NCBI GenBank assembly: GCA_903826205.1
Contig: CAIKDP010000448.1
Location: forward strand, 1 to 41,005
Reading direction: 5' to 3'
DNA: 41,005 nucleotides
From: Akkermansiaceae bacterium
GTDB taxonomy: Bacteria > Verrucomicrobiota > Verrucomicrobiia > Verrucomicrobiales > Akkermansiaceae
Shown: in pieces, positions 3,619 to 18,853 of the stretch
Position numbering within the stretch: the stretch's first letter is position 1
Layout: each line of letters opens with the position of its first letter
Made by a program: the position numbers and the translations under genes
Notes under the pieces: generated by a model
The model's input: only the letters and a program-made list of their open reading frames with translations
Databases searched by the model: none
Told to the model about the DNA's origin: nothing

Positions 3619-4743
3619 ATGAACCCATTTCCTGCTGTTGATCCCATTCCGTTGCCAGCCCCGGTATTGCTCTTCAAGGGTTTGCACATTCTCACGCTGG
3701 CGTTGCACTTCATCACGGTGGAGTTGTTGTTAGGCGGCCTGCTGGTGGCCACGTGGTTGAACCTTTACGGGGTTATGCGGCGGCAGGATGCCGCGGCGGA
3801 GTTGCGGCTGACGGCGGCCGCGGCGCTGGCGAAGCGGCTGACGGTGGTGATGACCTACGTGATCAACCTGGGGGTGCCGCCGTTGTTGTTCGCGCAGGTG
3901 TTGTACGGGCGCGCCCTCTACACCAGCAGCGTACTGATAGGTGTGTACTGGATCGCGGTCATATTTTTGCTGATGGCCTGTTACTGGCTGATCTATCAAT
4001 TTGCCGCGGGCGCGGAAAAGGGCAAGGCCGTCTGGTGGCAGGGTTTGCTGGCCTGGTTGCTGGCCGGGGCCATCGCCAAGATTTACGTCACCAACATGAC
4101 GCTGATGCTGCGGCCCGAGGTCTGGGGCCAGATGTATGCGACCACCGCACACGGTTCGCAGTTGCCACCGCACGATCCGACCGCATTTCCACGCTGGTTG
4201 TTCATGGTGTCAGGTGGCTTTTGGGTTTCAGGCATCTGGATGATATGGCTGGCGGGCCGCCGTGTGTTTGAAGATCCGGTGCGCAGATATCTGGCAGCCA
4301 ACGGGGGACGTCTGGCAGTGGTGATGTTGATAGTTCAGGCCTTTGTCGCGGCCAGGGTCTTGCAGGCCCAGCCGCAAGGGATTCGCGACGCGCTGGCCGC
4401 CGATCCGCTCGCCCGTTACGCGGGTCTGGCATGGATTGGCGTCGCGGTATTGATAGGCCTGTTTGGTCTTTGGGCGGCGGTGAAACAACCGATCAACCGG
4501 GCGGCGGGCTGGATAGGGGCGACGTTGTTGTTGGTGGGGATCCTGGGCATGACGGTGTATCGGGATGCGCTCCGGGACCTGACATTGTTGAGCAAGGGCT
4601 ATGATGTTTGGCAGAGGGTGGTGGTCACCAACTGGGGGGTGGTGATCCTGTTCCTGGCGCTGTTTGTGGCCGGGTTGGGCGTGGCTGGCTGGCTGATTTC
4701 AGTGATGATGAAGGCAAAAACCATTCCGGAAAAAGTGATGTGA
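3619..4743 (+). CDS. CydA-like multi-pass membrane subunit of a composite quinol-oxidising complex
   Basis: A 374-residue integral membrane protein with about eight to nine predicted helices. The start at 3619 (MNPFPAVDPIPLP) precedes the first helix directly; upstream in-frame sequence looks non-coding. Helix 1 carries GLHILTLALHFITVELLLGG, with two histidines seven residues apart in a Gly-rich context. This resembles helix I of the last gene of this operon, which is CydA-like. Later helices include VSGGFWVSGIWMIWLAG and a C-terminal anchor. There is no heme c motif. It opens a four-gene operon and overlaps the Rieske gene (TGATG, shared base 4743), so translational coupling is likely. Membership in a bc-type complex is inferred from position. 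No named family is certain. It could be a membrane anchor or a divergent heme b subunit. Confidence 0.65.
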   Translation: MNPFPAVDPIPLPAPVLLFKGLHILTLALHFITVELLLGGLLVATWLNLYGVMRRQDAAAELRLTAAAALAKRLTVVMTYVINLGVPPLLFAQVLYGRALYTSSVLIGVYWIAVIFLLMACYWLIYQFAAGAEKGKAVWWQGLLAWLLAGAIAKIYVTNMTLMLRPEVWGQMYATTAHGSQLPPHDPTAFPRWLFMVSGGFWVSGIWMIWLAGRRVFEDPVRRYLAANGGRLAVVMLIVQAFVAARVLQAQPQGIRDALAADPLARYAGLAWIGVAVLIGLFGLWAAVKQPINRAAGWIGATLLLVGILGMTVYRDALRDLTLLSKGYDVWQRVVVTNWGVVILFLALFVAGLGVAGWLISVMMKAKTIPEKVM

Positions 4744-5237
4744 TGAGCCACGACAATTCCAACACACAACAGCAAGGGCAGGAGGAAATTTCACCGGCAT
4801 CCACCCGCCGCATGTTCACCAAGGTGGTCGTGGGCGGTGTCGGGTTTTGTTATGCGGCAGCCCTCGGCTATCCGATTTACCGGTTCCTGAACTCACCCGT
4901 GGAAAAAGCCACCCTGGCCGCAGCAGTGACCGAAATCACGCTGAAGGATGCGCAAAAACTCCCCGCCGGCAGCGCCCTCATTTTCAAGTTTGGTGCCGAG
5001 CCGTGCCTGCTGATTCATCTGCCGGAGGGCAAATGGGTGGCCATGAGCGCCAAATGCACCCATTTGGGGTGCACGGTGCAGTATGAGCCGGACAAGCAGC
5101 GCATTTTTTGCGCCTGCCACGGCGGCACCTACGATCCGGCCAATGGCCACAATATCGCCGGGCCTCCCCCCAAGCCGCTGAAGGCCTTTGTGGTTAGGGA
5201 AGTGACTGACACCGCTGTTATTGTATCTCGGGCATAG
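4743..5237 (+). CDS. Rieske [2Fe-2S] iron-sulfur protein
   Basis: A 164-residue Rieske subunit of a cytochrome bc1/b6f-type quinol:acceptor oxidoreductase. It moves one electron from quinol at the Qo site to a c-type cytochrome on the periplasmic side. It has an N-terminal arginine pair (TRRMF, 21-25), one transmembrane anchor (about 27-47) and a soluble Rieske fold. The cluster-binding boxes are CTHLGC (Cys105, His107, with Cys110) and CACHGG (Cys123, His126, with Cys125), so all four ligands and the disulfide pair are present. The TRRMF leader suggests Tat export of the folded cluster domain, as is known for this family. ATG 4743 overlaps the stop of the gene before by one base, and cytochrome b follows after 9 bp. 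Confidence 0.93.
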   Translation: MSHDNSNTQQQGQEEISPASTRRMFTKVVVGGVGFCYAAALGYPIYRFLNSPVEKATLAAAVTEITLKDAQKLPAGSALIFKFGAEPCLLIHLPEGKWVAMSAKCTHLGCTVQYEPDKQRIFCACHGGTYDPANGHNIAGPPPKPLKAFVVREVTDTAVIVSRA

Positions 5238-5246
5238 GAACGCATC

Positions 5247-6407
5247 ATGAACAAACTCATCCAAGCTGCTTACACATGGGCGAACGAGCGCCTCAACCTC
5301 GATGACATGCTGCACTTCGCGCAGAAGAAAACCGTGCCCGAACACCGCCATTCGGCCTGGTATTATTGGGGTGGCGTGACCTTGTTTTTCTTCCTCGTGC
5401 AGGCCGTCAGCGGGGTGCTCCTGCTGCTCTATTACCGGCCGGGGCCGGATTCATTCGAGTCGGTGCGTCAGATCACCTTCGACATCAACTTCGGCTGGTT
5501 GATCCGTTCCATCCATTCGTGGGCCGCCAACCTGATGGTGCTCTCCATTTTTGTGCACATGTTCTCGGTGTTTTTCATGAAGGCTTACCGCAGTCCGCGT
5601 GAATTCGGCTGGTGGAGCGGCATCGCGCTGTTGGTGATGGCCATGCTCTTCGGGTTCAGCGGCTATCTGCTGCCCATGAATGAGCTGGCGTATTTCGCCA
5701 CCAAGGTGGGTCTGGAAATTCCGGCCTCGATGCCGGTGATCGGGCCGGTGATGGCCGACCTGGTGCGGGGCGGACTGGAGGTCAACGAGTTCACGGTGCA
5801 ACGGTTTTTCGCCTTGCATGTGGTGGTGTTGCCGGCGCTGTTTGTTCCATTGTTAGGATTTCATCTGTGGCTGGTGCAAAAGCATGGCAACGCGCTGCCG
5901 CCATCCGAGGAGGCGCGGCCGGTTGAGCAACGCCGGAACATGCCGTTTTTCCCCAACTTCATGCTGAGGGACATGGCCATGTGGCTCATCGCTCTCAACG
6001 TGCTGGCGGTGCTGGCGGCGGTGTTTCCGTGGGACCTGGGCCAGGCGGCCGATCCGCTCAAGCCGGCGCCGCGGGGGATTCATCCGGAATGGTATTTCAT
6101 GAGCCAGTTCCAGGTGCTTAAAGTTTTCGGCAACTGGTTGCCGGGTGCGGCGGGCGAGATCATCGGCCTGGTGTGGTTTTCGTTAGGAATGGTGTTGTGG
6201 TGTCTCATTCCGCTCTACGATCCCAACCGGTCCTCGGGTCGGCGCGGTCGGCGCGCCACCTATTTCGGTCTGCTTGCGCTGTTCATTCTGATCGTCACCA
6301 CTGGCTGGGGATACTGGGCGACCCATAATGAAACCCTCACCGACGCGCAGCCCGGGCCAGCCAAGGCGGGCGCTGCCCAATCACCCCCGGCGGCAAATCC
6401 AAAGTAA
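5247..6407 (+). CDS. Cytochrome b of a bc/b6f-type complex
   Basis: A 386-residue diheme cytochrome b with N- and C-terminal parts in one chain. Heme ligands are His90/His104 (13 residues between) and His191/His206 (14 residues between). The 13/14 spacing is that of the b6 type rather than the classical bc1 13/13. The Qo-site PEWY motif is at 280-283. About eight helices are seen, with a short Pro/Ala-rich C-terminal tail (AKAGAAQSPPAANPK). An AGGA-like site lies shortly before the ATG (taggaacgcatc). It follows the Rieske gene by 9 bp and precedes the CydA-cytochrome c fusion by 12 bp. No separate cytochrome c1 gene is present, so the fused cytochrome c of the next gene is the obvious electron acceptor (inference). 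Confidence 0.93.
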   Translation: MNKLIQAAYTWANERLNLDDMLHFAQKKTVPEHRHSAWYYWGGVTLFFFLVQAVSGVLLLLYYRPGPDSFESVRQITFDINFGWLIRSIHSWAANLMVLSIFVHMFSVFFMKAYRSPREFGWWSGIALLVMAMLFGFSGYLLPMNELAYFATKVGLEIPASMPVIGPVMADLVRGGLEVNEFTVQRFFALHVVVLPALFVPLLGFHLWLVQKHGNALPPSEEARPVEQRRNMPFFPNFMLRDMAMWLIALNVLAVLAAVFPWDLGQAADPLKPAPRGIHPEWYFMSQFQVLKVFGNWLPGAAGEIIGLVWFSLGMVLWCLIPLYDPNRSSGRRGRRATYFGLLALFILIVTTGWGYWATHNETLTDAQPGPAKAGAAQSPPAANPK

Positions 6408-6419
6408 TTTCCGAGCATC

Positions 6420-7766
6420 ATGAACTATCCATTCTGGGACGTCCCTCATATCGGCAGTGGCTGGGTGATTGGCATCATTGCCATCTTCCATATCATGATC
6501 TCCCACTTTGCGGTGGGCGGCGGGCTCTATCTGCCGCTGGCCGAACGCAAAGCCTTGCGCGAAGGCCGCGCCGACTGGCTGGAAAAGGTGCGCGGGCACT
6601 CGAAGTTTTTCCTCATCCTCACGGGCGTGTTCGGGACCGTTTCAGGCGTGGGAATCTGGTTCTCCATCGGCCTGGCTAATCCCGAAGGCACCAGCACGTT
6701 GATTCATAACTTTGTCTTCGGCTGGGCGATCGAGTGGGTCTTGTTCATGGTCGAACTGAGCACGGCGGTGGTTTATTACTACACTTGGGGCAGGATCTCC
6801 AACGAACTTCATCTCAAGGTGGGTTATGTCTATGCCGTCGCATCGTTCCTCACCTTGGTGATCATCAACGGCATTCTCGGTTTCATGATGATGCCCGGCG
6901 AACCATGGCTGGCGGTGGCCGGCACCGGCCAGGAAGCCAGTCGGTTCTGGCAGGCGTTTTTCAATCCCACCTACTGGCCGAGTTTGCTCCTGCGTTCGGC
7001 GGTGTGTGTTTCGCTGGCCGGCATTTGGGCGTTGGTGACGTGCAGCCGGATTGATGGTGAGGCCGAACCGCGGCTCAAAACCGAGATGGTGCGCTGGAGC
7101 GCCAAATGGCTCCTGCCATCGTTTTTGGCCATGCCGTTCATTCTCGTCTGGTATCTGTGGCAGGTGCCCGAGGCGCAGCGCGCCCTGTTACAGTTAGGCA
7201 TGAGCACCATCGGCACCGGCGCCTTCACCCAGGTCACGCGGATGGCTTTGCTCATGGTCATTAGCTCGGTCACCGTCGTGGGTGTCGTGTATTTCCTGGC
7301 GTGGCGCCTGCCACTCTCATTTGGCCGCGCGCACGCCTTGGCGGTGTTGTTTTTGGGACTGGTGGTCACGGCCGCCGGCGAATACAGCCGTGAAATGTTG
7401 CGCAAGCCGTATGTGATCGGCCGCCATATGTATTCCAATGGCGTGCGCAAGAGCGACGTCGAGCGACTCAACCGCGACGGCTATCTCCCTAACTCCCCCT
7501 GGCTCCCTGCCAACGCCACGGTGTTGCAGCGCGGCGAAGGCATGTTCCGTGGCCAGTGCATGGCCTGCCATACCGTCGATGCTTACCGCCCCATGAAGCG
7601 TTTGATGGCGGGCCGCGACCGCGAGGCCATCACCAGGTTGTTAGCCATTCTGCACGACTCCAAGCCGGATTCCCCCTACAAATCCTTCATGCCGCCTTTG
7701 GTCGGCACCGCCGAGGAGATCACCGCCCTCGGCGATTATCTGGATTCCCTGACCGCCCCCAAGTAG
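6420..7766 (+). CDS. CydA-like membrane domain fused to monoheme cytochrome c
   Basis: A 448-residue protein. Residues 1-360 resemble the N-terminal quinol-oxidising part of cytochrome bd oxidase subunit I. Features are FHIMISHFAVGG in helix I (His24 aligns with the bd heme-ligand histidine), AIEWVLFMVELST (matching the conserved AIE...E..ST region) and NGILGFMMMPG (matching the bd N-G-W-M-x-x-P motif). The helix around residues 183-205, where bd carries another heme-ligand histidine, shows none here. A C-terminal cytochrome c domain carries CMACH (Cys380, Cys383, His384) with a probable axial Met424 in SFMPPL. Together with the Rieske and cytochrome b genes it probably forms a composite complex passing electrons to periplasmic cytochrome c. 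Its 3' end overlaps the convergent gene by 31 bp. Confidence 0.8.
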   Translation: MNYPFWDVPHIGSGWVIGIIAIFHIMISHFAVGGGLYLPLAERKALREGRADWLEKVRGHSKFFLILTGVFGTVSGVGIWFSIGLANPEGTSTLIHNFVFGWAIEWVLFMVELSTAVVYYYTWGRISNELHLKVGYVYAVASFLTLVIINGILGFMMMPGEPWLAVAGTGQEASRFWQAFFNPTYWPSLLLRSAVCVSLAGIWALVTCSRIDGEAEPRLKTEMVRWSAKWLLPSFLAMPFILVWYLWQVPEAQRALLQLGMSTIGTGAFTQVTRMALLMVISSVTVVGVVYFLAWRLPLSFGRAHALAVLFLGLVVTAAGEYSREMLRKPYVIGRHMYSNGVRKSDVERLNRDGYLPNSPWLPANATVLQRGEGMFRGQCMACHTVDAYRPMKRLMAGRDREAITRLLAILHDSKPDSPYKSFMPPLVGTAEEITALGDYLDSLTAPK

Positions 7767-10138: not shown

Positions 10139-13100
10139 CTAGCGCGCGGAGGTTGCGGTTGGGGGTGGGAGCGTGCCGGAGGCGACGGCGGGCTGGCCCT
10201 CGGCAGACATCACGACGCGGAAGCCGACGTTGTAGACCGCCTGCCATGGGCGGTAGGGGAGACGTGCCGCGGAGCGTGCATGCTGCGGCCGGTCGAACCA
10301 TGAGCCGCCACGCACGGTCTTCATGGCGTCCGGTTTCGCCTCGTTGCGTCCGTCGCCGTCCGCATACGGATAGGCCCGGTACGAACTGAGCGTCCATTCC
10401 GCGGCGTTGCCATGCATGTTGCGCAGGCCCCAGCCATTCGGCTCATAGCGGCCGACGTCGGCGGTCACCCCGCAGCCGTCGTTGAAGCGGCGGTCCCGCG
10501 GATGCCATGGGGGAGCATCGCCGCGGTCCAGTTGGTTGAGCGAGGCGTCCGCCAGGTTGGCGAACTTGGAAAAATCGCTGTCGCGGGTGCCGTAGGCGAA
10601 CGGTGATTCGGTGCCGGCGCGGCAGGCCCATTCCCACTGTGCCTCGGTCGGCAGCGTGAACTTCTTGCCAGTCTTCTGCGAGAGCCATTTGCAAAACGCG
10701 ACGGCCTCGTTCCAGGAGATGCGGACCACGGGTTGGTTCGGCTGGTTGATGGTAATGCCGCGCTCGCCCTGATCCTTGCCGGTCATGCTGATCACGCCGC
10801 TGTCGTGTTTGGTGTCGAAGGCGGCGTATTGGGCGTTGCTGATTTCCAGGGTGCCCATGTAGAACGGCTTGTCGACCTTGACCCTGCTAACAGGAAACTC
10901 ATCGTTCTCACCGGCGGCATCGCCCATGATGAATTCGCCTGCGGGGATGAGTGCCAGATCCAGCGTCTTGCCGTCCGCCACCTCGATCTTTAGCGTGGGC
11001 GGCAGCTTCGCGGCCGTGACGCGCTTGGCCGCCTCGGCGGCATCAAACGGCCACCCGTCCACGCGCAGGTTCGACGGCTTGCGCTCGGGCAGCGGTGCGG
11101 GTGCAACATAGGCAACCGGCTCCTTGTTAGATGGTGCCGGGACCGCCTCCGGATCGTCGGTGCGGTTGCCATATTTCGCGTGCATCTCCATGCGCCTCTG
11201 CATCACGGGCCGCGCGCCATTGACATGCTCGGTCCAAGTGCCGTGGTCGGGCACGTTGAGGTCGATCCATGTGACGAGCCGCTCCCATGCCTCGGCGTCG
11301 AGCTTCACATTGTAGTGGCCGCGTTTGAGCATCTGGACCAGTTCGCTGGTGTCCGCATGATACTCCAACGGTTTTTGCAGGTGGTAATCGCTCTCCGGTC
11401 CCGGGCGGCGCACGAACGGATGGAGGGCGATGTAGGAGCGAGTGAAATTGCGCTCGCCGTTGGTTGGTTTGGCGGTGAAGTCGGCCACGGCCTGGCCATT
11501 AACCGGTTGGGCGCCTTCCTTGTGGCAACCGACACAGTATTTATCGAGGACCGGCTGCACCTCGCGTTTGAAGCTGAAGCCGCGGGCCGGACCATACCAC
11601 GGCGTGATGGCTGAGGCCGCACGCTGGCTGGCCAACGTAGGTTTGTTAGGAGGAATCGCGTTTTGCGTGTCGTGGCAACCGATGCATGAGAAACTCTCGC
11701 CCGGCATCGCCGTGTACCAACTGCGCATGAGTTGGATGGCCTTGCCCTCCGCATCGAGCGGTTGCACGGCGATGGGGGTGTTGGCCGGCACCTTGAAGCT
11801 GGCCGAGCCGTCGGCCTCCACCGGCACTGTGCCGAGGATGCGATGGACATCCCATGGGCCGTCGATGCCGACGTTGATGTGCCCGCCCATGCCGGGGTAG
11901 CCGAAGTGCGGTTCGTAGAGGCGCATTTTCTTGACGGTGCCGCGCGGCACGCCTGCCAGTCCCGGGCCCGCATAAATGTCTGCCAGATAGACCGTGGCAT
12001 CTTTTTTTGTCAGGTCGATGCGATCGGGGATGACCGGCGGACGGGTGGTCTTGCGCAGGGGGATCGGCTCTAACATGGCGTATCCGTCCAACTCCTTGAT
12101 GAGGGTCATGTTGTCAAACACATCCACCAGATAGATGCCCCATTTGGCCTGTTGCGTGGGTTTGCAGGAAACCAGAAAATACTTGTCGCTGAGCGGATAG
12201 GGATGAAGGAACTTCGGCCATGAGCCATCGACCAAGCCGTCGCGAATGACAGGTTCGACGGGTTTGCCGTTGCCCGGGATGCGTTGCACCACGCCATCGG
12301 CCTCGAAGCGGCCCTTGGCGGGGTCGAACACGACCAACTCGCCCATGCGTGGCACGCCGTGGTGGCCGGAGATGATGGAGACCAACTTGGTCGGGTGGTT
12401 GGGCACGGGCTTGGCATAGAAGAACGAATTGGGCCAATAGGAATTGCTGCCGTAATAGGACATTTGACCGGAGCCGTCCGGGTTCATGCGGAACAGGATG
12501 CGCGTGAAGTAATGCGGGGTGTCCGAGTATTCCCAACGGGTGTAGAGCACGCTGCCATCGTTGAGCACCGTGGGACACCAGTTCTGGTCCTGGTCGAAGC
12601 ACAGTTGGCGGATGCCTGTGCCGTCGGCATTCATTTTGCAGATGTTGGCCACATTGTTGCCGCCACCGACGCAGGGCACGCCGTGGAAGGCGAGGGACGA
12701 GGTGTAGAGGATCTTGCCATCGGGCAGATAGCAGGGGTCGTAGTTTTCCACATCGGGTTCCTCGCCGGGGGTCACCTGGCGCAAGCCGCTGCCGTCTGCC
12801 TTGACTTCCCACACCTGCCAGCGGTCATGTTTGCCGGGCATCGAGAACAGCATCTTGTCGCCGCTGAAGTCCAGCTTGAGGTCGCCCACAAACTCCGACT
12901 TCTGGGGCTTCATCAGGGTGGTCAGGTTGCCCTGCGGGCTCACCGGGGAAAGTACGGCGATTTCGTTGTCGTAACCGGTGCGGCCGATGCCGCAGTTGGC
13001 TTGCCAGTTTTGCGGCAGGCCGAGGTTGCCGGCACCGCGTTTGATCAACAGGAGTTTTTCAAAACCCAACAGCGGATTGGCCAGCAAGGACTCATTTTGC

Positions 13101-13429
13101 AGCGTGCTGAAATTGTTAGCCAACTCCTGGAGGCGCGGCTTGGCACCCTGGTCCCCACCTGCCAGGGCCGCTTCGGCCTCGGTGAGGGACTTCTCCAGGT
13201 CGGTCAGGCGGCTCAGAAAGTCCTTGCCTTTGGCGAATGTGGCACCGTGGGTGGCGATCATGTCGGTGATCGCCGCGCGCGTGCCCGGCACGCCGGCCAG
13301 CACGGGAAAATCCTTGGCGCTTGGCGGGGGGGCCTGTGGGGTGGCCGCCATGAGGCATCCACCTGCGGCCAGCCATCCCAATACGGCTGGAATTGCCGCC
13401 CTGCCCGTCATCAGTTGCAAATTATTCAT
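10139..13429 (-). CDS. PD40-repeat / diheme cytochrome (hydrazine-synthase-alpha-like) fused to an FGE-like domain
   Basis: A 1096-residue secreted fusion protein. After a signal peptide and a helical segment (about 35-125) come TolB/PD40-type propeller repeats (LKLDFSGDKMLFSMPG; YDPCYLPDGKILYTSS; CPTVLNDGSVLYTRWEY). A middle region follows that resembles the hydrazine synthase alpha family, with two c-type heme sites, CIGCH (near 581) and CVGCH (near 632). From about 820 there is a formylglycine-generating-enzyme/SUMF1-like domain (LIPAGEFIMGD; FTLPTEAQWEWACRAG; NMHGNAAEW; VRGGSW). The final block, GGSWFDRPQHARSAARLPYR, lacks the catalytic cysteine pair of true FGE, so sulfatase maturation is unlikely. 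PVC bacteria carry related heme/PD40 proteins of unknown function. True hydrazine synthesis is not implied. It stands alone on its strand, with a divergent region upstream. Confidence 0.78.
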   Translation of the reverse strand: MNNLQLMTGRAAIPAVLGWLAAGGCLMAATPQAPPPSAKDFPVLAGVPGTRAAITDMIATHGATFAKGKDFLSRLTDLEKSLTEAEAALAGGDQGAKPRLQELANNFSTLQNESLLANPLLGFEKLLLIKRGAGNLGLPQNWQANCGIGRTGYDNEIAVLSPVSPQGNLTTLMKPQKSEFVGDLKLDFSGDKMLFSMPGKHDRWQVWEVKADGSGLRQVTPGEEPDVENYDPCYLPDGKILYTSSLAFHGVPCVGGGNNVANICKMNADGTGIRQLCFDQDQNWCPTVLNDGSVLYTRWEYSDTPHYFTRILFRMNPDGSGQMSYYGSNSYWPNSFFYAKPVPNHPTKLVSIISGHHGVPRMGELVVFDPAKGRFEADGVVQRIPGNGKPVEPVIRDGLVDGSWPKFLHPYPLSDKYFLVSCKPTQQAKWGIYLVDVFDNMTLIKELDGYAMLEPIPLRKTTRPPVIPDRIDLTKKDATVYLADIYAGPGLAGVPRGTVKKMRLYEPHFGYPGMGGHINVGIDGPWDVHRILGTVPVEADGSASFKVPANTPIAVQPLDAEGKAIQLMRSWYTAMPGESFSCIGCHDTQNAIPPNKPTLASQRAASAITPWYGPARGFSFKREVQPVLDKYCVGCHKEGAQPVNGQAVADFTAKPTNGERNFTRSYIALHPFVRRPGPESDYHLQKPLEYHADTSELVQMLKRGHYNVKLDAEAWERLVTWIDLNVPDHGTWTEHVNGARPVMQRRMEMHAKYGNRTDDPEAVPAPSNKEPVAYVAPAPLPERKPSNLRVDGWPFDAAEAAKRVTAAKLPPTLKIEVADGKTLDLALIPAGEFIMGDAAGENDEFPVSRVKVDKPFYMGTLEISNAQYAAFDTKHDSGVISMTGKDQGERGITINQPNQPVVRISWNEAVAFCKWLSQKTGKKFTLPTEAQWEWACRAGTESPFAYGTRDSDFSKFANLADASLNQLDRGDAPPWHPRDRRFNDGCGVTADVGRYEPNGWGLRNMHGNAAEWTLSSYRAYPYADGDGRNEAKPDAMKTVRGGSWFDRPQHARSAARLPYRPWQAVYNVGFRVVMSAEGQPAVASGTLPPPTATSAR

Positions 13430-13645
13430 ACGCGTTTTCTAACAAATTTGGCGGCTTCCATATGAGAACCGCGCGTGCACGGAGATTCGTACGGCATGGA
13501 TACGAACTCAATTCCAAAATGTTTCATTTGGGTTGAAAGAAGCGCGCGGACGGCCCGTATGAGCGGCGACTTCACACTTGCAGTGGTGGGAGCCATGCAG
13601 GCATCCCGTGGGAGTCTGAGCCAGACCCGTATCATCCAACCGACC

Positions 13646-15079
13646 ATGAAACATCACAGTCCCATCAACCGTTGTCACAAGATTCACCATTTTTTGTTAG
13701 TTTTCGCCCTCGCGGGTGCCATTCCTGCCACCGCGGATGTGCGCCTGCCCAAGATTTTCACCGACAACATGCTGCTGCAACGGGACCTGCCGGTGCGGGT
13801 CTGGGGCTGGGCGGATGCCGGTGAAGACGTAAGTGTGGCCCTCGCTGGAAAGTCCGCCGCGGCCAAGGCCGACGATAAGGGCCAGTGGGCACTGGAATTG
13901 CCTGCACTCAAGGCCGGTGAAAACCTCGAACTCACGGTCAAGGGCAAGAATGAGCTGACCCTCAAGAACATCCTGATAGGAGACATTTGGGTTTGCTCCG
14001 GCCAATCCAACATGGAGATGGGTTTGAACGGTTGCCTGGGCGCTGCGGATGACATCAAGGCGGCCGACCTGCCGAAGATCCGCCGCATCAAGTTCAATCA
14101 TGCCAAGAGCGGCCAACCGGAGCCTGATGCACCGACCGCAACCCCATGGCAAGTGTGCACGCCGCAGACGGCGGGTGGGTTCACCGCTGTGGGATTCTAT
14201 TTCGCACGTGAGATCCTACAAAAAACCGGGGTGCCCATCGGCATCGTCGATTCCAATTGGGGCGGCACCCGGATTGAGCCGTGGGTGAGCACCGCCGACC
14301 TCGGGCTGCCCGCCGCCAAAGGCGACACGGGCAGCATGTACAACGCGATGATTCATCCGCTGGTGCGCCTCCCGATCAAGGGTGCCCTGTGGTACCAGGG
14401 TGAATCCAACGGCACTGAGGGCGATTCGTATTACGAAAAAATGTTGGCCTTGATCAGTGGCTGGCGCAAGCAATGGGGGCAGGGGGATTTCCCGTTCTAC
14501 TTTGTGCAACTTGCGAATTTCCAAGCCCCGTCAGTGGATCCCACCGGCGGCAATGGCTGGGCCAGGCTCCGCGAGGCGCAAACCAAGTCACTGTCCATTC
14601 CCAACACCGGCATGGCGGTCATCATCGATACCGTGCAGCTGGCCCAGTCCGGCGACATCCATCCCAAGAACAAATTCGATGTGGGGATGCGTCTGGCGCG
14701 CTGGGCGCTGGGCCGGGATTACGGACAAAAAGACCTGGTGGTTTCGGGGCCCCTGTTCAAGGCGCTCAAGATCGAAGGTGACAAGGCCCGCATGGAATTC
14801 AGCCACACTGGCACCGGGCTCATGATTGGCAAGAAAGAGGGGCTGACGCCTGCCGCCGAGGACAAGGAGGCCAAGCTCCAGCGCTTCGCGGTTGCCGGTG
14901 CCGACAAGAAATGGTTCTGGGCCACCGCCGTGATCGAAAACAATGCGGTCGTGGTTTCCTCGCCCGATGTGAAGGAACCCGTCGCCGTGCGTTATGCCTT
15001 CGAGATGAATCCGGACGGTGCCAACCTCTTCAATCGCGAGGGGCTTCCCGCCTCGCCCTTCCGCACCGACAGCTGGTGA
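13646..15079 (+). CDS. Sialate O-acetylesterase-type SGNH esterase
   Basis: A 477-residue secreted carbohydrate esterase of the SASA family (sialate 9-O-acetylesterase-like). Start 13646 gives a signal peptide ending near ATA (HHFLLVFALAGAIPATA); in-frame sequence upstream lacks coding character. After an N-terminal beta domain (DVRLPKIFTDNMLLQRDLPV) the catalytic domain shows CSGQSNMEM (nucleophile Ser121 in GQSN), WYQGESN and GDIHPKNK (Asp337 and His339). A C-terminal all-beta segment follows. Substrate is not fixed by the sequence: members deacetylate sialic acids, xylan or pectin-type polymers. It is convergent with the ThuA-ankyrin gene, with only 4 bp between the stops. Confidence 0.88.
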   Translation: MKHHSPINRCHKIHHFLLVFALAGAIPATADVRLPKIFTDNMLLQRDLPVRVWGWADAGEDVSVALAGKSAAAKADDKGQWALELPALKAGENLELTVKGKNELTLKNILIGDIWVCSGQSNMEMGLNGCLGAADDIKAADLPKIRRIKFNHAKSGQPEPDAPTATPWQVCTPQTAGGFTAVGFYFAREILQKTGVPIGIVDSNWGGTRIEPWVSTADLGLPAAKGDTGSMYNAMIHPLVRLPIKGALWYQGESNGTEGDSYYEKMLALISGWRKQWGQGDFPFYFVQLANFQAPSVDPTGGNGWARLREAQTKSLSIPNTGMAVIIDTVQLAQSGDIHPKNKFDVGMRLARWALGRDYGQKDLVVSGPLFKALKIEGDKARMEFSHTGTGLMIGKKEGLTPAAEDKEAKLQRFAVAGADKKWFWATAVIENNAVVVSSPDVKEPVAVRYAFEMNPDGANLFNREGLPASPFRTDSW

Positions 15080-15083
15080 GCCA

Positions 15084-16472
15084 TCACTTGGATAGAACCC
15101 CGAGCGCCGCCTGATTGTTGAATTTTTTGGCAATGTCCAGCGCCGTGACCCCTTCCTTGGATTTGAGGGAGGGGTCGACCTTGTGATCCAGAAGCAGTTG
15201 CACCATCTCCGCGCCACCACTGGCAGCCGCTTCATGCAGGGGCGTACCGCCTAACACACTCAGCACCATCGGGTTGGCCCCGCCACTGAGAAGGGCCTTG
15301 GCTATCTCAAGTTGATTCTTGGCCGCCGCATGATGCAAGGGCGTCCAGCCGTCCTTGTCGCGCGCATCCGGCTTGGCGCCTGACTTCAACAGCGCGCTTA
15401 CCAGCACCCCGTTGCCGCGCTCCACCGCAAGGTGCAGGATGCTGCGTTGCGACCCGTCCACACCGTCCGGCTTGGCCCCCGACTCTAACAAAACAAGCGC
15501 GATTTCCGTCTTGTTGCGCAGGACGGCCTGGGCCAAGGGTGAGCGGGTCTTGTCGCGGCCTTGATGGAGGCTGGCCGGGTCGGTTGACAGGTGGAGGCGC
15601 ACATCATCCAGATCGCCACGGGCGATGGCCTCGTCGATGGTTTGATAGGCGGGAGTGGCGGCGACGTTGCCGACAACGCCTTGTGGCGGCACCTCGAGGC
15701 CGGCCGTCCAGACGATTCCGTTAAGAACCAGTTGCCGGAAATCCTTGTTCGCCCAATGCCGGAATGAATGCCCGCCGCTAAAGCCAAACCCGCGTGATTT
15801 GTTAGGATTGTCGACCACCCAGGCGAGCGTCTGCGGGACCTTGTCGGCCAATTCCTTGCGCACCGCGGGATTGCCGGTGCGCGGGCCGTCCGCGCCGAGG
15901 GAATCCGCCGGCGGCAGCGCTTGCAGCAGGGGCGTGACGTCATCGCGCAACCGCAGGTGGTAGTAAAACTCATCTTCCATCTCAAACGGCGCGACCCCAC
16001 GGGTGGCCGGATGGCTGGCGATGATGGGGTGGGTCATTTTCCACACCGGATTGACCGACCACTCCGCGGAGAAATGGCCGCCAAGCGCCTCATCTAACAA
16101 CTTTGACAATTCCGGGTCGGCGGGTTCGAGGGCCCAGTGCAAGACGGTGAGGCCCTTGCCGGCAGCGTAGTGATTGCGCAATTCGGCGAGGTGTCCGGTG
16201 GCGGGGTGCTTGTCCATGCCATCGCCATAGATCACGATGGCATCGGCGGCGCCAACCCTGGCGACGTCCTGGGGCCAACCATTGCTGACGTCCACCTTGA
16301 GGTCGAGGCCGCTGGCGGCAAGATGCCTGGCCAGCAACGCGCAGGCGGACGGGTGCTCATGCTGACCGGCGTCGTGGCTCTTGGGGCCGGCAATGAAGAG
16401 GATGGTTTTAGGCGCGGCGCGCAGCGGTGCGAGCAGCAGGAGCAGCAGCAGGAGGGGCTTGGGGAAGAGCAT
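15084..16472 (-). CDS. Secreted ThuA-like domain fused to ankyrin repeats
   Basis: A 462-residue protein. ATG 16470-16472 was chosen because it gives an evident signal peptide with an eight-leucine run (MLFPKPLLLLLLLLAPLRAAP). Residues about 20-270 form a ThuA-like (trehalose utilisation, glutamine-amidotransferase-fold) domain: KTILFIAGPKSHDAG, IVIYGDGMDKH, GLTVLHWALEP, FEMEDEFYYHLRL and GFGFSGGHSFRHWANKDFRQLVLNGIVWTAG. The C-terminal third carries about four ankyrin repeats (LAVERGNGVLVSALLKSGAKP; DGWTPLHHAAAKNQLEIAKALLSGGANP; GGTPLHEAAASGGAEMVQLLLDH). ThuA and ankyrin domains are rarely discussed together. The ankyrins suggest protein binding in the periplasm. ThuA biochemistry is poorly defined; a sugar-related role is guessed from context. 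Confidence 0.82.
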   Translation of the reverse strand: MLFPKPLLLLLLLLAPLRAAPKTILFIAGPKSHDAGQHEHPSACALLARHLAASGLDLKVDVSNGWPQDVARVGAADAIVIYGDGMDKHPATGHLAELRNHYAAGKGLTVLHWALEPADPELSKLLDEALGGHFSAEWSVNPVWKMTHPIIASHPATRGVAPFEMEDEFYYHLRLRDDVTPLLQALPPADSLGADGPRTGNPAVRKELADKVPQTLAWVVDNPNKSRGFGFSGGHSFRHWANKDFRQLVLNGIVWTAGLEVPPQGVVGNVAATPAYQTIDEAIARGDLDDVRLHLSTDPASLHQGRDKTRSPLAQAVLRNKTEIALVLLESGAKPDGVDGSQRSILHLAVERGNGVLVSALLKSGAKPDARDKDGWTPLHHAAAKNQLEIAKALLSGGANPMVLSVLGGTPLHEAAASGGAEMVQLLLDHKVDPSLKSKEGVTALDIAKKFNNQAALGVLSK

Positions 16473-16631
16473 AGGTCGCAACCGATACGGAGGCGGGGTG
16501 CGGGATGTTTCGGGGTGACTGAATATTTCACCCGGCATGAAAGAACGGCCTGTGTTCAAGGGTAGAAGTGGCGGGTTCAATCCGCGGTTTTTGCGCCGCG
16601 GGCGCCTCCATTATTATTTCCCAACCAAATC

Positions 16632-17918
16632 ATGAACACCGTTATCAATCGTCGCTCGTTTCTCGGAACCTCCACCTTGTTAGGAGCCGGCCTGGCTGCC
16701 GGATCACTCTTCGCAGTGAATCTCCAAGCGGATACCAAAAAACTCAAAGTCGGCTTGATCGGGTGTGGCGGTCGTGGCAATGACGCGCTCAAAAATTTCC
16801 TGGAAGCCTGTAAAATCCTCGGGATCCAAGCCGAACTGGTCGCCACCGGCGACGCGTTCAAGGCTGCGGCCGAGGCGACCGGCAAGAGTCAGGGACTCGC
16901 GGCCGAGCGCTGCTTCGGTGGCTACGATGCCTATCAGAAAGTGGTGGCCAGTGATTGCGACTTTGTGCTGATGGCGACGCCACCGGCATTCCGGCCGGTG
17001 CATTTGGCGGCGGCCATTGAGGCGGGCAAGCATTGCTTTATCGAAAAGCCTGTGGCGGTGGATCCCGTCGGTGCGCGTGCCATCATTGCCACCGGTGAAA
17101 AAGCCAAGGCCAAAGGCCTGGCGATTGTGGCAGGCACCCAACGCCGGCATACGGCCGAATACCTGCGCAACAAGGCGCTGATTGATGCCGGAGCCATCGG
17201 CCAGATCAAGGGTGGCGTGGTGCAATGGAATGGCACGATCCCGTGGATCGCGGTGCGCCGCGACGGCGAATCGGATGCCTCCTACATGACCCGCAATTGG
17301 CTGAGTTTCACCGAGCTTTCCGGCGACCACATCGTCGAGCAACATGTCCACAATCTCGATGTCGCCGTCTGGTTCCTCGGACGTCTGCCGGTTTCCGCCG
17401 AAGGCTTCGGCGGCCGGGCCCGCCGCGAAACCGGCAACCAGTTCGACTTTTTCAGCATCGATTACGACTTTGGTGATGGCGTTCACATTCATAGCCAGTG
17501 CCGGCAGATCTCGGGCACCCACGGGGCCGTGGGCGAATTGTTCACCGGCACGGAGGGCGTTTGCTACGGCGGCGGCAAGATCACCGGCAAGGAAGTGAAG
17601 GTGGCGGAAATCAAAATGGACTCCGGCAATGCCTATGTCCAGGAGCATGTGGACCTGATCCGCAGCGCCCTGGCCGGCAAACCCCTCAACGAGGCCAAGA
17701 CCGTCGCGGAATCCACCCTGGTGGCCATCATGGGCCGGATCTCCGCCTACACCGGCGGCCTCGTCCGCATGGGCGATTTGCTCCAGAATGACAAAGCCGC
17801 CCTCTACAACTTCGCCTGTACCCCGGCGGCTCTGGATTTTGAAAAGGGCCCGATCAAACTCCCGGCGGAAGTCCCGGCGATTCCCGGCAATGATGCGAAG
17901 CCGCATGTCAGAGGGTGA
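16632..17918 (+). CDS. Tat-exported Gfo/Idh/MocA family oxidoreductase
   Basis: A 428-residue NAD(P)-dependent sugar dehydrogenase-like protein. It has a twin-arginine signal (NRRSFLG, 6-12) with a hydrophobic stretch to about residue 33, then a Rossmann GLIGCGGRG (41-49) and the family EKP motif (Glu138-Lys139-Pro140, IEKPVAV). DHIVEQHVHNLDVAVWFLG carries the conserved His/Asp residues of the catalytic region. PVC bacteria have many Tat-exported Gfo/Idh/MocA paralogues, which are linked to polysaccharide breakdown. It probably forms a two-gene unit with the sugar isomerase-like gene 23 bp downstream. The region upstream (16473-16631) is divergent with the ThuA-ankyrin gene. Confidence 0.9.
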   Translation: MNTVINRRSFLGTSTLLGAGLAAGSLFAVNLQADTKKLKVGLIGCGGRGNDALKNFLEACKILGIQAELVATGDAFKAAAEATGKSQGLAAERCFGGYDAYQKVVASDCDFVLMATPPAFRPVHLAAAIEAGKHCFIEKPVAVDPVGARAIIATGEKAKAKGLAIVAGTQRRHTAEYLRNKALIDAGAIGQIKGGVVQWNGTIPWIAVRRDGESDASYMTRNWLSFTELSGDHIVEQHVHNLDVAVWFLGRLPVSAEGFGGRARRETGNQFDFFSIDYDFGDGVHIHSQCRQISGTHGAVGELFTGTEGVCYGGGKITGKEVKVAEIKMDSGNAYVQEHVDLIRSALAGKPLNEAKTVAESTLVAIMGRISAYTGGLVRMGDLLQNDKAALYNFACTPAALDFEKGPIKLPAEVPAIPGNDAKPHVRG

Positions 17919-17941
17919 ATCATTGATAGAACAGCCGCCTT

Positions 17942-18853
17942 ATGAATACCTCACGTCGCCAATTCCTCGCGCTCTCATCCTTGGGCGCCGCCGCCGGCCT
18001 GCCGGGTTCCGTGTTGCGGGCAGCCTCCGCAGAGGCCACGCCAGCAGCCGGCGCGAATGCCGCCAAGGCGGTGTTGCGCTTGTCCTGTCAGGAATCCGTC
18101 GCCCCCGGCAAATCCCTAACCGAGAAGCTGGACTTTCTGGAGGCCAACGGCTTCGAAGCCATCGAACCCGGCGGCCGCGATCTAATCAAGCGGGTGGAGG
18201 AGTTCCAAAAGGCGTTGCAGGGGCGCAAGATCAAGATCAGTGCCGTCTGTGCCGGGTTTCAAGGGGTGCTCATTTCCGAACAGGAGGAGGAACGCAAGAA
18301 GGCGATCGACACGATGAAGGACATTCTAACGGCTGCGGGCGCGCTCGGCTCCGTCGGCATGATCATCGTTCCCGCCTTCAACAACCAAACCAAGCTCGGA
18401 CACCAGGAAGCCCGTGAATTGTTAGTCAGACTGCTGCCCGATCTCGGCGCGCACGCGCAGCAGGCAGGCACGAGAATCCTGTTGGAGCCGCTCAACCGCG
18501 GCGAATGCCATTTCCTGCGGCAAGTGGCGGATGGTGCGGCGATCTGCCGTGACGTGAACCATCCGGGCATCGCGTTGATGGGGGATTTCTGGCACATGAC
18601 GTGGGAGGAGACCAGTGATTATGCGGCATTTGTCGCCGCGGGCAAGTACCTGCAACATGTCCATTGCGCCAGCCGCAAGGATCGCAAGATGCCCGGCGAG
18701 GACGCCGGCGATAACTACGTGGACGGCATGAAGGGCCTCAAATACATTGGCTATCAGAATTTCATCAGCCTGGAATGCGGCTGCAAGGGCGATCGCATGA
18801 AGGCGATTCCGGCGGCCGTCCGCTTGCTGCGCGAGCAATGGGAACTCGCGTGA
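17942..18853 (+). CDS. Sugar phosphate isomerase/epimerase-like TIM-barrel protein with Tat-like leader
   Basis: A 303-residue AP-endonuclease-family-2 (xylose-isomerase-like) TIM barrel, a group that includes hydroxypyruvate isomerase and sugar epimerases. It has a Tat-type leader (TSRRQFLALSSLG, 3-15). Metal-ligand candidates are Glu in RILLEPLNRGECHFL, His and Asp in ALMGDFWHM, His in YLQHVHCAS and Glu in FISLECGCKGD. It follows the Gfo/Idh/MocA gene by 23 bp on the same strand. This pairing is common in Verrucomicrobia and Planctomycetes and suggests a shared sugar pathway. The exact reaction is unknown. Confidence 0.85.
   Translation: MNTSRRQFLALSSLGAAAGLPGSVLRAASAEATPAAGANAAKAVLRLSCQESVAPGKSLTEKLDFLEANGFEAIEPGGRDLIKRVEEFQKALQGRKIKISAVCAGFQGVLISEQEEERKKAIDTMKDILTAAGALGSVGMIIVPAFNNQTKLGHQEARELLVRLLPDLGAHAQQAGTRILLEPLNRGECHFLRQVADGAAICRDVNHPGIALMGDFWHMTWEETSDYAAFVAAGKYLQHVHCASRKDRKMPGEDAGDNYVDGMKGLKYIGYQNFISLECGCKGDRMKAIPAAVRLLREQWELA

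Follow-up and report, generated by a model that had tools for sequence, protein, structure and literature searches.

A hydrazine synthase alpha homolog with a formylglycine-generating enzyme-like tail in Akkermansiaceae, and its widespread, patchily expanded family

We analyzed one open reading frame (ORF) on a 41,005-nucleotide stretch of DNA from an Akkermansiaceae bacterium (contig CAIKDP010000448.1 of assembly GCA_903826205.1, positions 1 to 41,005; this whole stretch is referred to as the window). The ORF, located at positions 10139-13429 on the reverse strand, encodes a homolog of the alpha subunit of hydrazine synthase (HZS) across the entire heme core, yet is no hydrazine synthase, and its C-terminal domain is related to the formylglycine-generating enzyme (FGE). 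Homologs of HZS alpha outside anammox bacteria are known already, and the protein is a variant of them with an FGE tail. New here are a single FGE-fusion clade across phyla, a patchy expansion of the family, its co-occurrence with a homolog of HZS beta-gamma, and a minority of loci that encode DhaK, DhaL, LsrF and isomerase-like proteins. We propose, with moderate confidence, that the product is exported to the periplasm, where it would serve as a diheme c-type oxidoreductase belonging to the HZS-alpha superfamily, make no hydrazine, act on sugar-derived substrates and use its pseudo-FGE domain as a non-catalytic binding module. As judged from sequence and structural model, one chain combines a propeller, two CxxCH motifs (in the middle domain and in the cytochrome c domain) and an FGE fold without the cysteine pair. 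The features of the ORF are as follows.

10139..13429, reverse strand: whole ORF of 1096 amino acids, with N-terminal helices, propeller, HZS-alpha middle domain, cytochrome c domain and pseudo-FGE domain (Pfam, AlphaFold2 model and structure matches)
13340..13429, reverse strand: N-terminal ~30 residues, putative Sec-type signal peptide (by eye; low predicted local distance difference test score, pLDDT, in the model)
13082..13306, reverse strand: N-terminal helices, residues 42-116 (AlphaFold2 secondary structure)
12047..13066, reverse strand: beta-propeller of the TolB/HZS-alpha type, residues ~122-461 (AlphaFold2 model and structure matches)
11669..11941, reverse strand: HZS_alpha middle domain, residues 497-587 (PF18582)
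11672..11686, reverse strand: heme alpha-I site, CIGCH 582-586, with Asn590 at the place of HZS Tyr591
11522..11536, reverse strand: heme alpha-II site, CVGCH 632-636
10211..10957, reverse strand: FGE-sulfatase (SUMF1-type) domain, residues 825-1073 (Pfam and structure matches)
10262..10312, reverse strand: pseudo-active site RGGSWFDRPQHARSAAR, residues 1040-1056 (sequence)

Two Pfam domains were matched well above their cut-offs, HZS_alpha (PF18582; residues 497-587, E 6.2e-31, 107.3 bits against 26.6) and FGE-sulfatase (PF03781; residues 825-1073, E 1.7e-45, 156.2 bits against 23.3), whereas PD40 was not called in the ORF at E 0.05. The propeller of the original prediction is visible in the AlphaFold2 model and in the structure search as HZS-alpha and TolB matches. 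The rest of the predicted layout, with an HZS_alpha domain in the middle, a pair of CxxCH motifs and an FGE-like domain in the same chain, was confirmed by Pfam, motifs and model. Relatives of the ORF are encoded by 403 stretches of the genome collection, of which the best 80, representing 79 loci, were kept; the ORF is conserved across these relatives. The fusion to a SUMF1-type domain recurs in 81 extracted ORFs, all of which contain exactly two CxxCH motifs, and no known enzymatic family covering the whole architecture was found. The model was built from an 83-row family alignment, also used for conservation counts, that comprises 66 of the 81 extracted fusions and 17 of the 23 extracted non-fusions (pLDDT 89, predicted template modelling score 0.87); a model from the single sequence (pLDDT 35) was discarded. 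Judging by its Sec-type N-terminus, recognized by eye, and its c-type heme motifs, the product is probably exported, and the periplasmic redox or binding role with a pseudo-FGE domain that had been put forward is a plausible reading.

The similarity of the middle region to HZS alpha, on which the original prediction depended, was borne out by both sequence and structure. The first Foldseek match of the model was the alpha subunit of 5C2V (E 2.4e-27), and VIA-align superimposed model residues 122-738 on it with Z 32.8 and 3.1 A over 555 residues. A profile of 19 heme cores matched 5C2V alpha in four collinear stretches (E 4.6e-39), and a global profile-profile alignment with eight anammox HZS alpha sequences gave E 1.3e-57; these eight are the loci returned from 27 genomes that passed the curated cut-off among 392 Planctomycetota genomes searched. 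HZS alpha (5C2V; PF18582; NF052339) and the ORF product thus have in common the propeller, a CxxCH heme in the middle domain and a second CxxCH in a C-terminal cytochrome c domain, and the order of these domains is preserved. They differ in that the ORF lacks Tyr at the place of Tyr591 and Cys at the place of Cys303 and stays below the NF052339 cut-off, and in that its family possesses an RWEYxD motif with His357, an extra FGE domain and many copies.

In HZS, the zinc at heme alpha-I is bound by the CxxCH histidine and the iron by Tyr591 (PMC12607021, PMC12758564; here and below, statements on published work refer to the sections drawn on). We compared this site in 93 family rows (66 fusions, 17 non-fusions and 10 further paralogs from the same genome) with the eight anammox rows. 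The CxxCH is kept, and Tyr at the Tyr591 place is found in none of the 93 family rows, as against all eight anammox rows. In three family rows (L070, L077 and L135) a Tyr stands one residue past this place, and a Tyr ligand of the heme is conceivable there. The place of the zinc ligand Cys303 is occupied by Asn329 in the ORF, and Cys is found there in 0/93 family rows and in only two of the eight anammox rows, so that Cys303 is not universal even among anammox HZS alpha. Cys253 was considered as a counterpart of this zinc ligand and ruled out, as Cys303 aligns with Asn329.

A functional HZS, or an enzyme acting on nitric oxide or hydroxylamine, would fit the homology of the heme core and the presence of a beta-gamma homolog in the genome. 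It is highly improbable in view of the missing Tyr591, of the NF052339 score (52.3 bits, cut-off 800), and of the score of the genome's own beta-gamma copy, 174.1 against 1250 in the NCBIfam beta-gamma fusion model; the authors of PMC12758564 reach the same conclusion for the homologs studied there. We rejected hydrazine chemistry on these residues and sub-cut-off scores for both alpha and beta-gamma, in agreement with the earlier argument against it, and consider such chemistry very unlikely for the ORF product.

Hagglund et al. 2025 (PMC12758564) describe non-anammox HZS-alpha homologs of clades I-IV, likewise lacking Tyr591 and Cys303, some of which adjoin fused beta-gamma homologs. The family of the ORF shares with them the HZS-alpha homology, the absence of both residues and, at some loci, a fused beta-gamma gene nearby. 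According to that study, searches of GTDB for HZS give 300 to 1,000 matches, of which a RefSeq subset was studied. Its main text contains no occurrence of sulfatase, formylglycine, FGE, Verrucomicrob or carbohydrate, and in the sections drawn on we found neither the FGE fusion nor 18-33 copies per genome nor LsrF/DhaKL genes. A limited literature search returned no published description of an HZS-alpha/FGE fusion. Hydrazine synthase has so far been regarded as almost without relatives (PMC12758564). A large alpha family with this architecture, multiplied in some Verrucomicrobiota and accompanied by one or two beta-gamma copies and locally by diketone and sugar genes, offers a concrete lead on the origin of the anammox enzyme as well as a testable function for uncharacterised periplasmic cytochromes.

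The following residues are conserved within the family.

12671..12673, reverse strand: invariant Cys253, propeller loop (66/66 fusions, 17/17 non-fusions, 9/10 further paralogs of the same genome)
12521..12538, reverse strand: R298-W299-E300-Y301-x-D303 motif, propeller loop (R298, W299, Y301 and D303 in 83/83 rows; absent from the eight anammox HZS alpha)
12359..12361, reverse strand: His357, propeller loop (83/83 rows, 7/10 further paralogs of the same genome)
11315..11317, reverse strand: His705, putative distal heme alpha-II ligand (66/66 fusions, 14/17 non-fusions)

In the ten divergent copies of the same genome, C253, R298, W299, Y301, D303 and H357 are retained 9, 10, 9, 9, 9 and 7 times, respectively. 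R298, W299, Y301, D303 and H357 are not found in HZS, where the C253 column is unreliably aligned. In the model these residues sit in loops that join strands two and three of successive blades, and should therefore share one propeller face, which we infer to be that on the heme alpha-I side. His705 matches HZS His772 after a one-residue shift in the alignment; together with its conservation, this makes bis-His ligation of heme alpha-II by His636 and His705 likely. We place the putative substrate site at the junction of heme alpha-I, which would keep its ordinary His586 ligand, with the propeller face bearing C253, R298, Y301, D303 and H357, and suggest that heme alpha-II would hand electrons onward. 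A structural, adhesion or electron-carrier protein devoid of substrate chemistry of its own would be in keeping with propellers and FGE-like folds being common binding folds (matches to TolB, PorK and TvpA), and is unlikely given the strictly conserved polar residues of the propeller loops and the conserved heme alpha-I site.

The C-terminal domain shares family and fold (E 1.7e-45; Z 23-28) with FGE/SUMF1, PvdO, TvpA and PorK and differs from FGE/SUMF1 in being the tail of a diheme protein and in its active-site residues. The catalytic cysteines of human FGE, Cys336 and Cys341, correspond to D1046 and A1051 in the ORF. Among the 66 aligned fusions, the first place is occupied by Asp (59), Glu (4), Thr (2) or Gln (1) and never by Cys, and the second by Ala (49), Cys (7), Ser (6), Thr (3) or Gly (1). 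Because both cysteine equivalents are replaced, the tail should not be a formylglycine-generating enzyme. At the same time R1047 is found in 65/66 and P1048 in 64/66 fusions, and the conservation of this D1046-R1047-P1048 (DRP) motif suggests a retained function, most simply binding. The replacement of the cysteine pair had been predicted and stands; as a special feature of the fusion it was rejected, because the first Cys is missing from all 14 FGE-domain proteins of this genome with a readable motif (6 fusions and 8 others), five of which keep the second Cys only. The genome has 21 FGE-domain matches in total, the 7 whose motif was not readable by patterns being uninformative.

The best structural matches of the tail by VIA-align were PvdO (5HHA, Z 28.5), TvpA (27.4), PorK (24.5) and FGE (up to 23.6), TvpA being a ligand-binding FGE-like protein. 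With PvdO ranking above true FGE and the DRP motif conserved, the domain might itself work as a different kind of oxidase, like PvdO, the heme part only removing its electrons. We think this improbable, as TvpA scores nearly as high and PorK follows, likeness of fold is no proof of function, and 12 of the 18 alpha paralogs of the genome are devoid of the domain. A non-catalytic FGE-like domain that binds a ligand or partner would be the simpler role within the proposed periplasmic oxidoreductase.

The phylogeny of the heme core, computed without the FGE columns for 98 rows, places all 66 fusion rows in one clade (Shimodaira-Hasegawa-like approximate likelihood ratio test, SH-aLRT, 100), which requires one change against a mean of 27.2 for shuffled labels. 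The tree is a quick LG+G4 one with long branches (L137, L091 and L135) and one gene of the same genome entered twice (L007 and L129). As fusions were taken into it only from the best 80 among the 403 matches and from the copies of the same genome, fusions outside the clade, or losses within it, may have been missed through this sampling. One further fusion of the same genome (contig C61, L005) was left out of the 81 extracted fusions, as its match started at residue 104. The clade carries the labels Verrucomicrobiota, Kiritimatiellota, Planctomycetota, Hydrogenedentota, Lentisphaerota, Armatimonadota, Sumerlaeota, Nitrospirota and Bacteroidota. Several of these are interleaved, which suggests horizontal transfer of the fusion among phyla; nearly all fusion records are metagenome bins, in which binning errors are possible. 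One fusion, 52% identical to the ORF product (L061), belongs to Puteibacter caeruleilacunae, a named strain that is apparently in culture. The nearest relatives of the window copy are another copy of the same genome and metagenome-assembled genomes (MAGs) of Akkermansiaceae and Verrucomicrobia. The fusion is thus widespread and not a one-off, a point that the original prediction missed, along with the 18 HZS-alpha-type genes and single beta-gamma homolog of the genome itself. Separately, five HZS-alpha-type genes, including two FGE fusions, share one strand in a Kiritimatiellae MAG (L019:1972-19088), and a divergent HZS-alpha-like protein of ~1355 amino acids, encoded on contig C56 of the same genome as the ORF (L137:903-4967), lacks the second heme motif at the corresponding alignment position.

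HZS_alpha was found in 16 of 59 relatives (the genome itself counted) and in none of 14 control genomes. The expansion is patchy, with 18 copies in this genome, 33 in the congener G018, 31 in G028, 24 in G025, 15 in G035, 8 in G017 and at most 4 in the other ten; six of the 18 copies here carry the FGE domain. The gene adjoining some fusions encodes a YVTN-type propeller with a MauG/CCP-like diheme domain. This protein matches the NCBIfam beta-gamma fusion model below its curated cut-off (E 1.7e-43 for the L040 copy, 3.8e-51 for the genome's own) and is aligned by hhalign with anammox gamma at 38% identity over 219 columns (E 1e-34). At E 1e-20 it is present in 15 of the 59 relatives, namely in 14 of 16 alpha-positive and one of 43 alpha-negative genomes (Fisher p 1.3e-10; the Fisher tests here and below ignore phylogeny). 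The exceptions are weak: in G029 and G057 the best alpha matches have E 8e-8 and 2.6e-12, and in G056 the beta-gamma match (E 4e-21, G056:C47:79526-81256) lies inside a 2617-amino-acid open frame. All fourteen hand-chosen alpha-bearing genomes possess beta-gamma, as one copy in 11 and two in 3. It follows the fusion on the same strand in 14 of the 54 loci having at least 4 kb downstream, and on contig C63 of the genome itself the single beta-gamma gene, a non-FGE alpha gene and an FGE fusion succeed each other on one strand.

With somewhat less certainty, this MauG/CCP-like homolog may be a common redox or maturation partner of many alpha paralogs. A more specific version makes it a MauG-type maturase, through which the alphas would acquire a protein-derived cofactor (Cys253, Trp299, Tyr301) and become quinone- or radical-type dehydrogenases; this would explain one or two beta-gamma copies beside many alphas, the weak profile matches of beta-gamma to CCP_MauG, MauG- and MbnH-type proteins, and an invariant Cys/Trp/Tyr set of which Trp299 and Tyr301 are absent from anammox HZS alpha. 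This version has a low probability in our view, as the beta-gamma protein of the genome scores 119.6 bits with HZS gamma against 39.4 with MauG, and structural reasons can also keep Cys, Trp and Tyr invariant.

The proposal that the periplasmic oxidoreductase acts on sugars or sugar-derived ketones, which we make with less certainty than that of its heme chemistry, draws on neighboring genes. In 78 fusion loci, tblastn with representatives found DhaK and an aldolase-family (LsrF-like) gene in 12 loci each, and DhaL and an isomerase-like gene in 13 each, the identity of every one of the four being checked on one representative. The 'aldolase' representative is an LsrF-type thiolase (431 bits against 297 for the curated LsrF model; LsrF structures at 2e-105), the isomerase-like one resembles D-lyxose/D-mannose isomerase (E 3e-16) and has a twin-arginine-like N-terminus by eye, and the DhaL representative passes its model, whereas that of DhaK stays below its cut-off. 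In L011, whose fusion is 82% identical to the ORF product, DhaL, LsrF, isomerase-like, DhaK and fusion genes lie on a single strand, and at least two of the Dha/LsrF/isomerase genes are upstream on the same strand in 6 of the 43 fusion loci with at least 6 kb upstream. Within the genus, five of the ten genomes with alpha and none of the 27 without it contain LsrF (E 1e-60; Fisher p 5.8e-4), and the LsrF-positive congeners are the five richest in alpha copies. LsrF of E. coli converts a phosphorylated diketone to acetyl-CoA and dihydroxyacetone phosphate; it is therefore a reasonable guess that the heme protein helps to oxidize a sugar or deoxysugar in the direction of a ketone of this kind. 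In the genome itself, the isomerase-like gene precedes a non-FGE alpha on the same strand of contig C208, and neighbors of some alphas include rhamnosidase, GH127, GH63/MGH1-like, Gfo/Idh, SASA esterase, polysaccharide deacetylase and a sulfatase fragment.

Several observations weigh against the proposed partner and substrates. A set of two or more Dha/LsrF/isomerase genes is missing upstream in 37 of the 43 loci with at least 6 kb there, and beta-gamma is missing downstream in 40 of the 54 loci with at least 4 kb there. The window locus has neither an LsrF operon nor beta-gamma, the genome's only beta-gamma match being on contig C63. Alpha copies far exceed beta-gamma copies, so that for most alphas no beta-gamma gene lies at the same locus. 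Across the 59 relatives as a whole, LsrF and alpha are only weakly linked (Fisher p 0.033), and LsrF occurs in the absence of alpha in five order-level genomes. The DhaL-LsrF-DhaK genes of the genome itself are on contig C423, where they adjoin ORFs that resemble sulfatases by eye; the part of this contig that was analyzed contains no alpha gene. Glycan enrichment beside the alphas of the genome is only suggestive: among the commonest 25 of 104 and 109 families, carbohydrate-type ones are Gfo/Idh 3, rhamnosidase 2, MGH1-like 2, SASA 2 and GH94 1 near alphas, and GH2 2 and GH106 1 in the control. The neighbor set comprised 74 of 109 called genes (18 HZS-alpha genes, one beta-gamma gene and genes more than three positions away left out), and the control set 74 of 92 genes (3 masked ones dropped and the list then cut in order, L156-L158 being unused). 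ORF clusters 2 and 7 of the neighbor clustering resemble antisense ORFs.

On balance, sugar-linked periplasmic redox chemistry appears to be the best-supported reading. A wider scheme can be tentatively built on it, although we regard it as rather doubtful: one (rarely two) beta-gamma-like MauG-type diheme protein per genome would serve up to 33 alphas by maturation or electron transfer, each alpha acting on a different sugar-derived substrate; the FGE-tailed clade would be one branch, feeding a DhaK-DhaL-LsrF diketone pathway, and the anammox enzyme would have been recruited out of a wide family devoted to carbon metabolism. Verrucomicrobia are also known to possess the planctomycete-specific cytochromes PSCyt1-3, multicopy c-type cytochromes that He et al. 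2017 (PMC5615132) report close to sulfatase genes, some with carbohydrate-binding modules, and describe as being of unknown function. No PSCyt domain was among the Pfam matches of the ORF at E up to 0.05.

The surroundings of the ORF contain further genes. A SASA acetylesterase (13475-15079, forward strand) is divergent from the ORF, and a SASA protein is also encoded upstream of an 84%-identical copy on contig C160 (L092). Further along the window lie one ORF with a ThuA domain and then ankyrin repeats (15084-16580, reverse strand) and the genes of Gfo/Idh/MocA and xylose-isomerase-like TIM-barrel proteins with N-termini of the twin-arginine translocation (TAT) type (16632-18853, forward strand), the first of which passes the NCBIfam TAT cut-off and the second falls just below. 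At a distance of 2.4 kb from the ORF, a Rieske protein, cytochrome b and a CydA-like membrane protein are encoded in a row (4608-7766, forward strand); the CydA-like protein has a weak, sub-cut-off cytochrome c match at its end, and the row is a possible electron acceptor for the ORF product.

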